A stretch of 64,000 bases of DNA from a virus. Shown here one piece after another: positions 20,645-50,377 of this stretch. The DNA lies in the IMG/VR virus record IMGVR_UViG_3300013104_000001, positions 1 through 64,000 of that record. The stretch is one strand, 5' to 3'. The notes under the pieces are model-generated. The model did no database searches, was not told the DNA's origin, and worked only from the letters and a program-made list of their open reading frames with translations. The position numbers and the translations under genes were made by a program. The stretch's first letter is position 1, and each line of letters starts with the position of its first letter.

Positions 20645-21520
20645 GTGCCTGCACAACAGCCGATTCATGGTGAGGGTGACTATGTTGTAGACGTCTCATT
20701 GAGTTCCCAGCAGTTAGTCTATGGTCTTATCAACCATGATAACGAAACTGACTACACCTCATTGACGTTACGGTTAGGAACCCCGACTGTAAATAACAAT
20801 ATCCAGCATCCTCGTAATACTCGTATCTTTGCCGAGACACGCCCAGGTGCACCAAAGCAAGGTTCGACCTTTTTCTATTATGACCGCATTTCGCTGGCTT
20901 ACTACCTGCAGAACTACCCAGATCTGACTGTTGATTTAACCGACGACATGAAGACCATGCAGGATCTCGTTCCCTGGTTTAATGATAAGTTCGGTTTAGG
21001 GCTGGTCGCCTCTGACGTACGGCCTGATTTAATCAGTCGTGTCCCGAATGCACAGAACCGCTTTGCTATCTCAGCAGGTTCACTGGCTTGGCAAGATTCC
21101 GTTGCCTTCAGAATTGTGCTGGAGCCGGTTGATATCGCAACACTGACTGGTAGCAATGAACTGGATGTTATTAATGTGGTTCAAGAGCATCCGCGCACTT
21201 ATGGTCAGCTCTATGGTTATGCAACACCGACTGCCGATATGAACGCCGTGCTGAAGACATTGCCGTTAGGTGAACTGTCACAGACTAGCGGTTCTAATCT
21301 GGCGTCTGCGTTAAGCACAGCCACTGAAGACTACTGGGCGTTTAATACTGCAGCTTCGATTCGTAACCTGATGGAAGCCGCTGTACGTTTTAATGGTCGT
21401 CCGGCTGATCAGACAGATTACCCAGTGCGCGAAGGTTTCAACCGTATGGTCATCATTGATACGGCTGTGAGCAAATGCCTGGAATTCGAAGGTCCATTAG
21501 TTCTTTACTACGTCGCTTAA
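20645..21520 (+). CDS. Structural protein, first of three related tandem genes
   Basis: 291 residues from a GTG start with an excellent AAGGAG site six bases upstream. Its layout is repeated in the genes at 21536 and 23274: FYYDRISLAYYL (about 78-89), then LVPWFNDKFGLGLVASDV (about 108-125), then DYWAFNTAASIRNLMEAAVRFNG (about 238-260) and a hydrophobic C-terminal strand. This is a virion-type beta protein with no enzymatic motifs. The operon-like spacing (15 bases to the next gene) suggests the three are made together, perhaps as head-tail connector or decoration components. Confidence 0.75.
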   Translation: MPAQQPIHGEGDYVVDVSLSSQQLVYGLINHDNETDYTSLTLRLGTPTVNNNIQHPRNTRIFAETRPGAPKQGSTFFYYDRISLAYYLQNYPDLTVDLTDDMKTMQDLVPWFNDKFGLGLVASDVRPDLISRVPNAQNRFAISAGSLAWQDSVAFRIVLEPVDIATLTGSNELDVINVVQEHPRTYGQLYGYATPTADMNAVLKTLPLGELSQTSGSNLASALSTATEDYWAFNTAASIRNLMEAAVRFNGRPADQTDYPVREGFNRMVIIDTAVSKCLEFEGPLVLYYVA

Positions 21521-47150: not shown

Positions 47151-47426
47151 GTGGATAAGAAGCAACTTACGCCTGAACTGATCTCCGTGCTGGACACTCT
47201 GGATCGTGAACTCAAACACATCCGTCTGACCCAACCAGATCGCATCAACACCTTGTTGAAAAACAAGTGTTTCAGCTTAGCACGTAAAGTGAAGTCACCT
47301 CACGTGAAACGCATTCTGCAATCTATTAGCGGAGTGCCATTGTCGGTGGCTAAGTTTGAAGAGATCCAGGATCTTCGTCGCGAAGTGGAACGCGATGAAG
47401 TGGAACTCTCCGCGACCACGATATGA
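47151..47426 (+). CDS. Small helical basic protein
   Basis: 91 residues from a GTG start (GAGGAAGAG upstream). Highly helical, rich in Lys, Arg and Leu (RELKHIRLTQPDRINTLLKN), with an acidic C-terminus. Nucleic-acid or protein binding is possible; unrecognised. ATGA overlap with the acetyltransferase gene. Confidence 0.6.
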   Translation: MDKKQLTPELISVLDTLDRELKHIRLTQPDRINTLLKNKCFSLARKVKSPHVKRILQSISGVPLSVAKFEEIQDLRREVERDEVELSATTI

Positions 47427-47899
47427 AGGGAATTGATTGGCGTTGGCTCAGTAACTTAAACGAAGCTGATCACAACGCCATGACAGCCCTTGCTGTTAAA
47501 CAGTACTACGCTCAGGCAACCTACTGGGAAGAGCTGGGCGTAGACTGGAATTCTCCACAGCCAAAAACGATCCACTCGTACATGGCAAACTATGTGAAGA
47601 ACGCAGCGATCAAACTGATCATCCGTGACAAAACGAAAAAGATGATTGGTTTTGGCTTGCTGAGTGTTGAACGTACTGATAAAGGGATGATCTGTCATAT
47701 TGACGAGATCTTCATTGATGAGCCCTATCGTGGAAAGGGTATCGGTACAGCAACCTTGATTCGAATTAAACGTCATGCCGAGAAACAAAAGATAGTTGCG
47801 CTAACGTTAAATGTGAGCTCAGCGAATCCAGTGCGCAGGCTTTATGAGCGCATGGGCTTCCAGTCTGTGCAGGTTAAATACCAAATGAGGTTAATATAG
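47423..47899 (+). CDS. GNAT-family N-acetyltransferase
   Basis: 158 residues. Typical GNAT order: strand MIGFGLLSVER (75-84), strand HIDEIFIDEPYRGKGIGTATL (92-112) with acetyl-CoA-binding RGKGIGT at 103-109 after the beta4 strand, then TLNVSSANPVRRLYERMGF (motif B, about 133-151). It would transfer acetyl from acetyl-CoA to an amine; the substrate (host protein, metabolite or antibiotic-like compound) is not shown. ATGA-coupled to the preceding gene. Confidence 0.8.
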   Translation: MKGIDWRWLSNLNEADHNAMTALAVKQYYAQATYWEELGVDWNSPQPKTIHSYMANYVKNAAIKLIIRDKTKKMIGFGLLSVERTDKGMICHIDEIFIDEPYRGKGIGTATLIRIKRHAEKQKIVALTLNVSSANPVRRLYERMGFQSVQVKYQMRLI

Positions 47900-48636: not shown

Positions 48637-48660
48637 GCGCTGGTTCTGCCAGCGCTTTTT
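48637..48660 (+). terminator. Intrinsic terminator
   Basis: GCGCTGG-TTCTG-CCAGCGC followed by five Ts and AATTAAATAATAAG. It lacks the TTATGCC trailer of the others. Confidence 0.85.
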
Positions 48661-48684: not shown

Positions 48685-49200
48685 ATGGATATCGGACAGT
48701 ATCAGCCTTCCCCTAAGACATTAGTGCTTTCGAATATGTTTTGTAACTTCTTCGGAAAGCAACCGCTTTATTATAGTTTCGACCTGGGTAACCGGGTTAT
48801 CCCTGTTACAGGACCACTGCAGGTCCATTACCCAATTAGTGTTGCTGAGATTCCGTGTTATAAGCGTGTTGTTGAACACATGGTGACATCGCATAATGTG
48901 ACACAGTTAGTGGGGGTTGTAGAAGAAGCCTTGCGCTGCTTCCCTGATATACCTTATAACTCAGAAGAGTGCAGTGGTTTAATTGCTGGGTTATGTGGTG
49001 GTCGCGCTATGACCGTGATGATAAACCAAGTGGTGTATCGTGCGATCGTGTTGATTGCAGGTGTGGTCTGGCTGGATAAACTCCCTCAGGTCTGCCTTGA
49101 GCCCGATGGTCAGGTCTGGGATACATTGGCGAAGTGTATTGAAATTAAGCGCAGTCAAATCTTACGTGAACGTGCCTTGTTGAAAAACCTGTTTCGCTAA
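48685..49200 (+). CDS. Unknown protein
   Basis: 171 residues, ATG 48685 after AAGTGAGTC, directly behind a terminator. Cysteine-rich helical middle (RCFPDIPYNSEECSG, LIAGLCGG), then a hydrophobic stretch (YRAIVLIAGVVWL) and a basic C-terminal helix. No motif known. It is the first of three small genes ending with the SspB-like gene. Confidence 0.6.
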   Translation: MDIGQYQPSPKTLVLSNMFCNFFGKQPLYYSFDLGNRVIPVTGPLQVHYPISVAEIPCYKRVVEHMVTSHNVTQLVGVVEEALRCFPDIPYNSEECSGLIAGLCGGRAMTVMINQVVYRAIVLIAGVVWLDKLPQVCLEPDGQVWDTLAKCIEIKRSQILRERALLKNLFR

Positions 49201-49212
49201 AAGAGGATGGCT

Positions 49213-49791
49213 ATGAACTACATATATCGCTCTGACGGTCATACGTTTTTGGTTGCATTCAGAACAGAGGGGATCGATAAAGACCCCAATGAGATGACGC
49301 ACCTTGAACGGGTGGCGTCTTACTACTGTTTGCCCGTGGCCTTGGGTGATTTCGGTACGTGCATCGCATTCTTCCCTCCCCATCTTCAGGAATCAGAAGA
49401 GCTCTTCAATGAAGCTGGGGAGTTTCATGATCACATCTATCTGCTTTGTGGTAATCAGTTATGTATCACACAGAACGATGATGTACTGCTGCTCGAACAA
49501 CTGCCTGACGTATGGCACAATGTTCCTCGTGAGTCGTACAACAAGATCATGGAAATGTATATCGCTCCCTTTGAGTTCATCAACGAGCTTAATTCAAAAC
49601 TTATCCGTTCCAATAAGTCTGCTGACTTAATCGCCGATAAGTTCCTTAAGCTGATGGACAAATTCTCAGAAGCCATCTTTTGTTTTTACGTCAATGAACG
49701 TAATGGCAAAGTTGGTAATGTCGAAAAACAGATTTCCTTTATACCCCGTAAACGTGGGGCTGTAATCAACGACCCCATCGTAATCCATTAA
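49213..49791 (+). CDS. Unknown protein
   Basis: 192 residues from ATG 49213, six bases after AGAGG; ATG 49207 is too close to the site. Beta-rich N-terminal half (HTFLVAFRTEG, YLLCGNQLCITQND), helical middle and a basic C-terminus. Not recognised. Separated from the SspB-like gene by 11 bases, so the two are probably co-expressed. Confidence 0.6.
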   Translation: MNYIYRSDGHTFLVAFRTEGIDKDPNEMTHLERVASYYCLPVALGDFGTCIAFFPPHLQESEELFNEAGEFHDHIYLLCGNQLCITQNDDVLLLEQLPDVWHNVPRESYNKIMEMYIAPFEFINELNSKLIRSNKSADLIADKFLKLMDKFSEAIFCFYVNERNGKVGNVEKQISFIPRKRGAVINDPIVIH

Positions 49792-49802: not shown

Positions 49803-50264
49803 ATGTCACAAGAACCAAAAATAACTATCCCGTATCTGCACTTTTCACTCACCGCCTTTCGTGACTTTATTATCGCGAACGATATGACACCGTATATCGT
49901 GGTAAAACCGATTCCTGGTGCCGATGAAGTTCTTGACCAATATGTCAAAGAAGGCACTGTAACGCTGAACCTGAGCCCTACAGCGTGTCGCTCGTATCAG
50001 ATCAGTGAAGAAGGCTACATGATCGTTGAACAGCGCTTCAACGGTAAGCCACATCGCGCTTACATCCCTGTGGGTTGGGTGCTGGCTATGTTTGCCCGTG
50101 AGAATCCACAGATCGGCATGGGGTTCGATGGTGATATCTTTGGCACCCCAATCAACGATGGTAAAACAACACCTTCTGTATTTGACACACCTGTTGTAGA
50201 AACTGCTGAAGAGACGAGCAACGTCACACCACTTCGGAAAAGTGGACTGAGCGTCGTCAAGTAA
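49803..50264 (+). CDS. sspB-like: SspB-like ClpXP adaptor
   Basis: 153 residues. Host SspB binds ssrA-tagged proteins and delivers them to the ClpXP protease. The N-terminal domain lines up with E. coli SspB along its length: IPYLHFSLTAFRDFIIAND / RRPYLLRAFYEWLLDNQ, MTPYIVV / LTPHLVV, GTVTLNLSPTA / GQIVLNIAPRA, RFNGKPHRAYIPVGWVLAMF / RFGGIPRQVSVPLAAVLAIY, and ARENPQIGMGF / ARENGAGTMF. A disordered linker (about 115-143) follows. The last residues, LSVVK, mimic the ClpX-docking tail LRVVK. Both substrate-binding and protease-docking parts are therefore present. Alignment is from memory of the host sequence. It could redirect, supply or compete with host ClpXP. Confidence 0.85.
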   Translation: MSQEPKITIPYLHFSLTAFRDFIIANDMTPYIVVKPIPGADEVLDQYVKEGTVTLNLSPTACRSYQISEEGYMIVEQRFNGKPHRAYIPVGWVLAMFARENPQIGMGFDGDIFGTPINDGKTTPSVFDTPVVETAEETSNVTPLRKSGLSVVK

Positions 50265-50317
50265 ATCCTATGGTTGCAGCTCATCCCTCTGTAGCCGTAG
50301 TGTAACTTCAGCAGTTC

Positions 50318-50335
50318 GGGGGACATTTGTCCCCC
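50318..50335 (+). terminator. Hairpin after the SspB-like gene
   Basis: GGGGGAC-ATTT-GTCCCCC, perfect 7 bp, then TTCTAC; a T-rich stretch follows 15 bases later (TTTATTTTTT). Confidence 0.6.
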
Positions 50336-50377
50336 TTCTACACGCAGCCCTTTATTTTTTGTCGAGAATTCTTCAAG

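Follow-up and report, generated by a model that had tools for sequence, protein, structure and literature searches.

The window analysed here, a stretch of 64,000 nucleotides, belongs to a 287,406-base virus record and carries an open reading frame (start ATG, stop TAA) for a 153-residue protein ending in GLSVVK. The order of genes around it, an acetyltransferase gene, three genes, the sspB-like gene and a small gene, is common to the window, AH06 and RAY, and its features are listed in Table 1. The acetyltransferase gene is of GNAT type (window positions 47423-47899; best Pfam match 51.5 bits). Terminator-like hairpins numbered 3 in 2.4 kb, against 1.6 in shuffles. No tRNA or tmRNA genes were found in the window with ARAGORN, and no ssrA-like sequences were found in the 72 open reading frames called in it (greedy calls, 60 residues or more). 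One window frame was flagged for an Ala-type end (LYYVA), that of a DUF7941 protein (190 bits) at positions 20645-21520. All 19 phage records matching the 24 kb around the gene were Erwinia phages, 17 of them at 80-90% identity in blocks covering 12-17% of the query, and the taxonomy, where seen (AH06, RAY, Ea35-70, Rebecca, Deimos-Minion), was Agricanvirus. Chimallin, the shell protein of the phage nucleus, is encoded in the same virus record (79% identical to RAY gp222), and the phage is, therefore, nucleus-forming by gene content.

Table 1. The sspB-like gene, the parts of its product and neighbouring features (window coordinates).
Feature	Coordinates	Strand	Basis
Terminator-like hairpin before possible three-gene unit	48637..48655	+	Consensus match only
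Upstream gene, PHROG 11616, first of possible three-gene unit	48685..49200	+	PHROG; same order in AH06, RAY
Upstream neighbour, PHROG 11060, stop 11 bases before sspB-like ATG	49207..49791	+	PHROG; order in AH06, RAY
sspB-like gene (stop codon included)	49803..50264	+	153 residues; Pfam, PHROG, synteny with AH06 gp38 and RAY gp39
SspB-type substrate-binding domain, residues about 10-112	49830..50138	+	PDB alignment 11-112, AF2 pLDDT, Foldseek SspB matches
Gln77 codon, at the column of E. coli SspB Ala74	50031..50033	+	Alignment column
Linker, residues 113-139, predicted disordered	50139..50219	+	pLDDT <50; dN by part
NVTPL, short conserved motif, residues 140-144, before docking tail	50220..50234	+	NVT-P/A-L in 7/7 agricanvirus-type copies read
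LSVVK, C-terminal ClpX-docking (XB) type motif	50247..50261	+	Aligned with E. coli LRVVK
Strong hairpin GGGGGACATTTGTCCCCC after sspB-like gene, without T tract; possible unit end	50318..50335	+	z -2.76 for 50300-50350

The protein is a member of the SspB superfamily, judging from its sequence matches and predicted fold. Pfam SspB (PF04386) matched residues 22-111 with 46.9 bits (E 3.9e-12, above the cut-off of 27), and PHROG 8945 ('SspB-like') matched residues 5-153, near full length, with 114.6 bits. The best PDB sequence match was to 1zsz_C, a chain of H. influenzae SspB (E 7e-15 over residues 11-112); E. coli SspB was also among the matches. Identity is 26% to E. coli SspB and 26-32% to the bacterial rows aligned. 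The full-length match and the conserved gene order place the protein in the agricanvirus-type SspB-like family (PHROG 8945), and its best score in NCBIfam is 75 bits against the 162 of the SspB equivalog (PRK11798), all nine models listed falling below their cut-offs. The protein search and a 12-sequence profile each gave one match in the virus record, and no second SspB paralogue was found at their sensitivity. The fold, the order of domain, linker and tail and the LxVVK end are common to this protein and the SspBs of E. coli and H. influenzae. Compared with E. coli SspB, the window protein has a three-residue insertion at the first helix and a one-residue insertion before the Phe72-Phe76 strand, and its linker has 34 residues with 5 Asp+Glu, versus 49 with 17 (as cut for this count).

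The AF2 model of the protein was built from an alignment of 38 sequences that held bacterial SspBs, and the fold is, thus, not evidence independent of the sequence matches. The model is moderate (mean pLDDT 62, pTM 0.49), with block-mean pLDDT values of 68-82 over residues 11-100 and 52 over residues 101-110. Residues 107-153 fall below 50, as would be expected of a disordered linker and tail. All 13 PDB chains that Foldseek returned at E<=0.001 were SspB, with query TM-scores of 0.38-0.40 and target TM-scores of 0.48-0.54 in these first 13 rows. SspB rows also came out in VIA, at Z 4.5-6.0, with unrelated Sac7d rows barely below (up to Z 4.4); the best row, 1yfn_A (Z 6.0, rmsd 4.3, 85 aligned), was tied with other SspB rows. 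Eight rows of a viral structure library were matched at E<=0.001, including proteins of Erwinia phage Rebecca and Pseudomonas phage Noxifer that are both named stringent starvation protein B. An SspB fold (helix plus beta barrel) is, at the level of a moderate model, predicted for the window protein. Dimerisation is uncertain because columns of the first helix are changed (R15, Y18, W20).

The LSVVK end aligns with the LRVVK of E. coli SspB. An end of the type L-x-[VIL]-[VI]-K was found in one of the 72 window frames, the sspB-like one alone, and the composition-based chance of such a tail is 1.4e-4 per protein; the tail is beyond chance. All seven agricanvirus-type sequences read have an end of the LxVVK type, among them LTVVK in an IMG/VR relative, LSIVK in AH06 and LTVVK in RAY, and similar ends were found outside this group: LRVVK in pf16, LRLVK in G002 and LTIVK in SNUABM_54. 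More distant copies end in LTVIKGGKK (phiKZ), LTLIKGGKK (phiPA3), LTLIQGGKK (Psa21), LRVIQGGKA (D6), FKVIEGGKD (EL) and MTVIDGGK (Phabio); the XB-like character of the 201phi2-1 end, LQVHEGGLK, is doubtful. The SspB-like domain of LucasX has no such tail (end RARRKPSS), and the end of the Noxifer protein, NVVSLFPKH, is not of the LxVVK form. It resembles, instead, the VVSLDAFRKK ends that one type of bacterial SspB has. An LxxV/I-K/D/E end was present, with four exceptions, in 147 of the 151 bacterial rows tallied, a tally that leaves out 28 bacterial loci (L134-L161) whose ends, as seen in 16 of the 28, are mostly of the VVSLDAFRKK kind. A tail of the SspB type is described as docking on the zinc-binding domain of ClpX, established for E. 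coli, in parts of two papers (PMC12373786, PMC8138137), and an XB peptide fused to eGFP is described as sufficient for ClpXP-dependent degradation in E. coli in a section of the former (PMC12373786). Motif, conservation and architecture make it likely that the phage tail docks on ClpX too. The NVTPL motif (NVTAL in RAY) adjoins the docking tail and could be a second short binding element.

Selection was measured by part of the protein (domain, 112 codons; linker, 27; tail, 14) as Nei-Gojobori distances, and only the contrast between parts was used, since the distant pairs have reached saturation at synonymous sites and the tail spans 14-15 codons. In the closest pair, the window copy and the IMG/VR copy, dN was 0.185 for the domain, 0.155 for the linker and 0.034 for the tail, and dS was 1.42, 0.51 and 0.62, respectively; the linker is, thus, faster than the domain in dN/dS only, and not in dN. 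In comparisons with the more distant AH06 and RAY copies, much more change has accumulated in the linker than in the domain and tail (dN of the window copy against AH06 / RAY: domain 0.40 / 0.45, linker 1.2 / 2.2, tail 0.45 / 0.32), and the AH06-RAY pair gave 0.23, 1.06 and 0.35 for the three parts. Tail dN was below linker dN in all four pairs, and below domain dN in two of them. The domain and the tail are under purifying selection, and a conserved head, a drifting linker and a conserved tail form the pattern that a tethered adaptor should show. The preliminary description, made from the sequence alone, had proposed an SspB-like product with a tethering linker of the SspB kind and an end close to LRVVK, and these points stand, as does the SspB fold, for which it had called for structure prediction; its statement that the product matches SspB over most of its length was too generous, since the match to bacterial SspB takes in about two thirds of the protein.

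The groove of the domain has changed. Residues were compared in an alignment of 166 sequences, 129 of which are distinct SspBs classed as E. coli-type (the types are labels of this analysis). We take the columns of E. coli Ala74 and Phe72 to line the peptide groove. For the Ala74 column of the 129 E. coli-type SspBs, the alignment gives 124 Ala, 4 Gly and 1 Ser, and a regex count gives 124 Ala, 3 Gly, 1 Ser and 1 Val. The column holds Gln in all seven agricanvirus-type sequences read (four aligned, plus Ea35-70, Rebecca and Deimos-Minion), a count that amounts to five distinct sequences, since one and the same protein occurs in RAY, Ea35-70 and Deimos-Minion and that of Rebecca is one residue off. 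The Phe72 column is Phe in 128 of the 129 E. coli-type SspBs, and Val, Val, Met and Leu in the four aligned agricanvirus-type sequences, so that the window protein lacks the canonical E. coli-type groove residues at both columns. Other near-invariant E. coli-type columns are kept: N54, R75, F76, G78, P86 and E97 in all four, and A59 in three of the four. At column 74, a second bacterial SspB type (20 rows) has Leu in 10 and Phe in 10, and the 28 loci L134-L161, which were left out of the alignment for their poor match to the phage profile and checked separately, have Leu in 27 and Val in 1; Gln was found in none of the 177 bacterial rows. The PDB chain 1zsz_C, a designed SspB, carries Gln at the Ala74 place. 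A change of Ala73/74 to Gln is reportedly used to stop binding of the ssrA tag. A literature search on the groove-column Gln and on ssrA-binding mutants found no paper stating the effect of Gln. Part of one review gives R73Q, an SspB change in optogenetics, as part of what improved affinity (PMC8993538); this wording was not used because its numbering does not fit the 1zsz_C sequence, and it is also contrary to expectation. The substitution suggests that the standard ssrA tag is not bound by the phage protein, and the binding of ssrA tags considered in the preliminary description is doubtful. A bulky residue at column 74 is nonetheless compatible with adaptor function and even with some form of ssrA binding, because Leu, Phe or Val stands there in two further types of bacterial SspB.

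A search with the window protein (tblastn) matched 23 phage records; Erwinia phages account for 17 of these, with identities of 44-47%. The E. coli SspB query matched 72 phage records, and among the 60 listed were phiKZ (PHIKZ232), many close relatives, Xanthomonas phage LucasX and Erwinia phage SNUABM_54. Bacterial-looking sspB genes (59-89% to E. coli) in Salmonella S.Kent (2.7 kb), AGRM01000002 and Acinetobacter MD-2021a were set aside, as were four loci of which the ends only were seen (L126, L127, L129, L130). Locus L010 was rejected as a phage copy: it looks bacterial, with a GST-like gene beside it. A plasmid collection gave 20 records, all below 60% identity and many of chromosome size. 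The copies of RAY (gp039), AH06 (gp38), Ea35-70 (gp039) and others resemble the window copy in their place in the gene order, architecture, Gln column and tail type; those of RAY, AH06 and Ea35-70 are 44-47% identical to it and differ in the sequence and length of the linker. The protein gp18 of Pseudomonas phage pf16 is also a phage SspB, with an LRVVK tail like that of the window protein, but it is closer to bacterial SspB (Pfam 120 bits), keeps Ala74 and exceeds one equivalog cut-off (165.5 bits versus 135). A third set, comprising PHIKZ232 of phiKZ and the copies of phiPA3, 201phi2-1 (gp347), Psa21, D6, Phabio and EL, has an SspB-type N-terminal domain and, except in 201phi2-1, an XB-like end followed by GGK. 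These phiKZ-type copies differ from the window copy in being mostly longer (235-373 residues; EL 155), in having Val, Cys or Ile at the Ala74 column and in lying elsewhere in the genome, near thymidylate synthase in phiKZ, 201phi2-1 and Phabio, as in Noxifer.

A survey of the family covered 20 phage or virus records. PF04386 matched 14 of the 20 at E<=10, with 8 above the cut-off, and the 12-sequence profile (11 phage sequences, 1 from E. coli) matched 16; five of these matches (phiPA3, 201phi2-1, EL, Noxifer, Phabio; E 5e-10 to 8e-16) are independent, because the other 11 of the 16 records supplied profile sequences. The chimallin of RAY matched 13 of the 20 records at E<=0.01, and 12 of these 13 have an SspB-like gene, with an XB-like end in nine of the 12 by our own reading. 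The sample is biased because several records came in by their SspB hit. Among nine records chosen otherwise, by name (PhiPA3, 201phi2-1, EL, SPN3US, PCH45, Noxifer, Phabio, OBP) or by DNA similarity (SNUABM_48), an SspB-like gene was found in five and chimallin in five, four of which have the SspB-like gene. SNUABM_48 (L022, MW879340.1) has a chimallin 57% identical to that of RAY, yet no SspB-like gene was found in it with either PF04386 or the 12-sequence profile.

Such genes have been noticed in part. The 201phi2-1 record gives 'SspB domain-containing, similar to phiKZ gp232', Bobae and Churi use the SspB name, and most of the other relatives are listed as 'hypothetical'. RAY gp039 is named 'SspB-like ClpXP adaptor', and its GFP fusion is described as diffuse in the cytoplasm in a part of the RAY paper in which the adaptor is not counted as a core gene (PMC10299810). 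The SspB analogue of pf16 was published in 2017 and, in the wording of an excerpt of that paper, was then unreported in any other phage (PMC5587285). Word searches found no mention of SspB or ClpX in the paper describing the Erwinia phages, and none of SspB, ClpX or ClpP in two reviews. The phage SspB-like adaptor is, thus, already known, from the syntenic gene of Agricanvirus-type Erwinia phages and from pf16, and the remark that such adaptors are seldom reported in phages is only partly right, in view of the named Erwinia genes, the localised RAY protein, the pf16 publication and the wider jumbo-phage set. Added here are the nuclear type of the phage by gene content, the breadth of the gene in chimallin-positive records, the drifting linker and the Gln at the Ala74 column.

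The origin of the gene was approached with a tree of 98 of the 166 rows, with Enterobacterales thinned (118 columns, unsettled bootstrap, 51 of 95 forks open), in which long phage branches attract each other. The four agricanvirus-type sequences group together (100/100), with a long stem of 3.36 changes per column, and fall outside a clade of 17 rows (99/90) in which E. coli SspB and the retained Enterobacterales rows are found. The pf16 and G002 copies join four bacterial SspBs (98/75), and most phiKZ-like copies stand apart on long branches. The long stem and the placement outside the E. coli clade make a recent theft of a host gene unlikely. On this tree, capture has probably occurred more than once, with pf16 gp18 probably a separate capture and the agricanvirus-type capture probably old.

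The best explanation, on which our judgement is evenly poised, is that the protein is a viral ClpX adaptor that docks on host ClpX and delivers something other than standard ssrA-tagged proteins; we infer both the ClpX binding and the client. In this reading, the free C-terminal LSVVK would bind host ClpX at its zinc-binding domain, the SspB domain would be kept near the ClpX pore by the flexible linker, and its groove would present a client for degradation by host ClpXP. The phage would, in this way, retarget ClpXP in the cytoplasm, outside its nucleus. With Gln for Ala in the groove column but the docking tail retained, the standard ssrA tag is probably not what is delivered; a different peptide, from the host or the phage, would be the client. 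Client binding, the change of specificity and a benefit to the phage are, similarly, things that we infer. It seems rather improbable that the protein is a conventional ssrA adaptor that tops up or replaces host SspB and speeds the clearing of stalled, tmRNA-tagged phage and host proteins. Such a role would agree with an overall fold and tail as in SspB, with the several near-invariant E. coli-type columns kept, and with the pf16 copy, the Ala74 and equivalog score of which indicate that phages can carry near-standard SspBs; the agricanvirus-type copies, however, have Gln for Ala74 and Val, Met or Leu for Phe72, the designed SspB 1zsz_C has the same Gln, which reportedly stops tag binding, and the long stem (3.36) outside the E. 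coli SspB clade is unlike that of a recent copy of a host gene.

The protein might instead fill the docking site of ClpX without delivering anything, shutting out host SspB and other tail-docked adaptors and sparing phage proteins. Of the three parts, the tail has the lowest dN in the closest pair (0.034) while the groove columns have diverged, and Erwinia genomes, although Erwinia may not be the host, have an SspB of their own as a possible target of such exclusion (five Erwinia-labelled loci, fetched by that match). We nevertheless consider blocking of this kind unlikely, because it needs the tail alone, and the domain is under purifying selection (dN 0.185, dS 1.42, closest pair) with many SspB columns kept. 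A role related to RseA, as proposed in part of the pf16 paper (PMC5587285), would draw on the known SspB-RseA complex (1yfn, by its title), but the first place of 1yfn_A in VIA carries no weight because it is tied with other SspB rows, and this role appears very unlikely. An equally slight chance is given to a reuse of the SspB fold in a task that does not involve ClpX, the tail then being without significance: the low identity to bacterial SspB, the tailless LucasX domain and the different end of Noxifer would fit, and against this reuse stand the tail of all seven agricanvirus-type copies, the XB-like end of most distant phage relatives read and the low composition-based chance of such a tail.

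The adaptor reading extends tentatively to phiKZ. The gene PHIKZ232 (phiKZ NC_004629.1 229299-230207; L011:3971-4879) is unnamed there and encodes a predicted SspB-fold N-terminal domain and an LTVIKGGKK end. The model of its residues 1-125, from an alignment that held SspBs, has a pLDDT of 79.5 and a pTM of 0.72, above those of the window protein, and matches the PDB with Z 14.1 (rmsd 2.3, 101 aligned), the next unrelated row having Z 4.9; the first 12 PDB entries were SspB structures except one untitled Agrobacterium protein. In a part of one study, PHIKZ232 is among six mass-spectrometry candidates enriched with a shell sample, and tagged constructs of these candidates gave a mostly diffuse signal outside the shell (PMC10449902). 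A table of P. aeruginosa proteins in another paper, in the section on gp335 of jumbo phage Churi, includes the host's stringent starvation protein B (Q9HVY8) (PMC11849849), and the part seen of a host-gene screen with a nucleus-forming phage associates clpP knock-down with impaired motility and phage resistance. It is conceivable, though we hold it with less than even confidence, that self-encoded ClpX adaptors, with an SspB fold and, in most, an XB-type end, are widespread among nucleus-forming jumbo phages and have grooves remade for the phages' own clients, host ClpXP becoming a programmable cytoplasmic weapon (e.g. against a regulatory or defence protein of the host); the copy of the agricanvirus type would then be a natural ssrA-blind, retargeted adaptor and PHIKZ232 the phiKZ version. 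If the tail docks on ClpX, this would be virus-run targeted protein degradation; PHIKZ232 would become an adaptor open to testing in a nucleus-forming phage that has been studied intensively, and natural SspB variants might, through their clients, hint at which host proteins these phages have to eliminate. Laboratory degraders have been built from the SspB tail, as described in a section of one paper, and the phage adaptor would be their natural counterpart (PMC12373786). As a separate observation on gene neighbourhoods, the second gene after the SspB-like gene of Psa21 and D6 (L016:1345-3204, L015:1474-3357) is annotated as a cell division protein, which in Psa21 bears the protease name FtsH.
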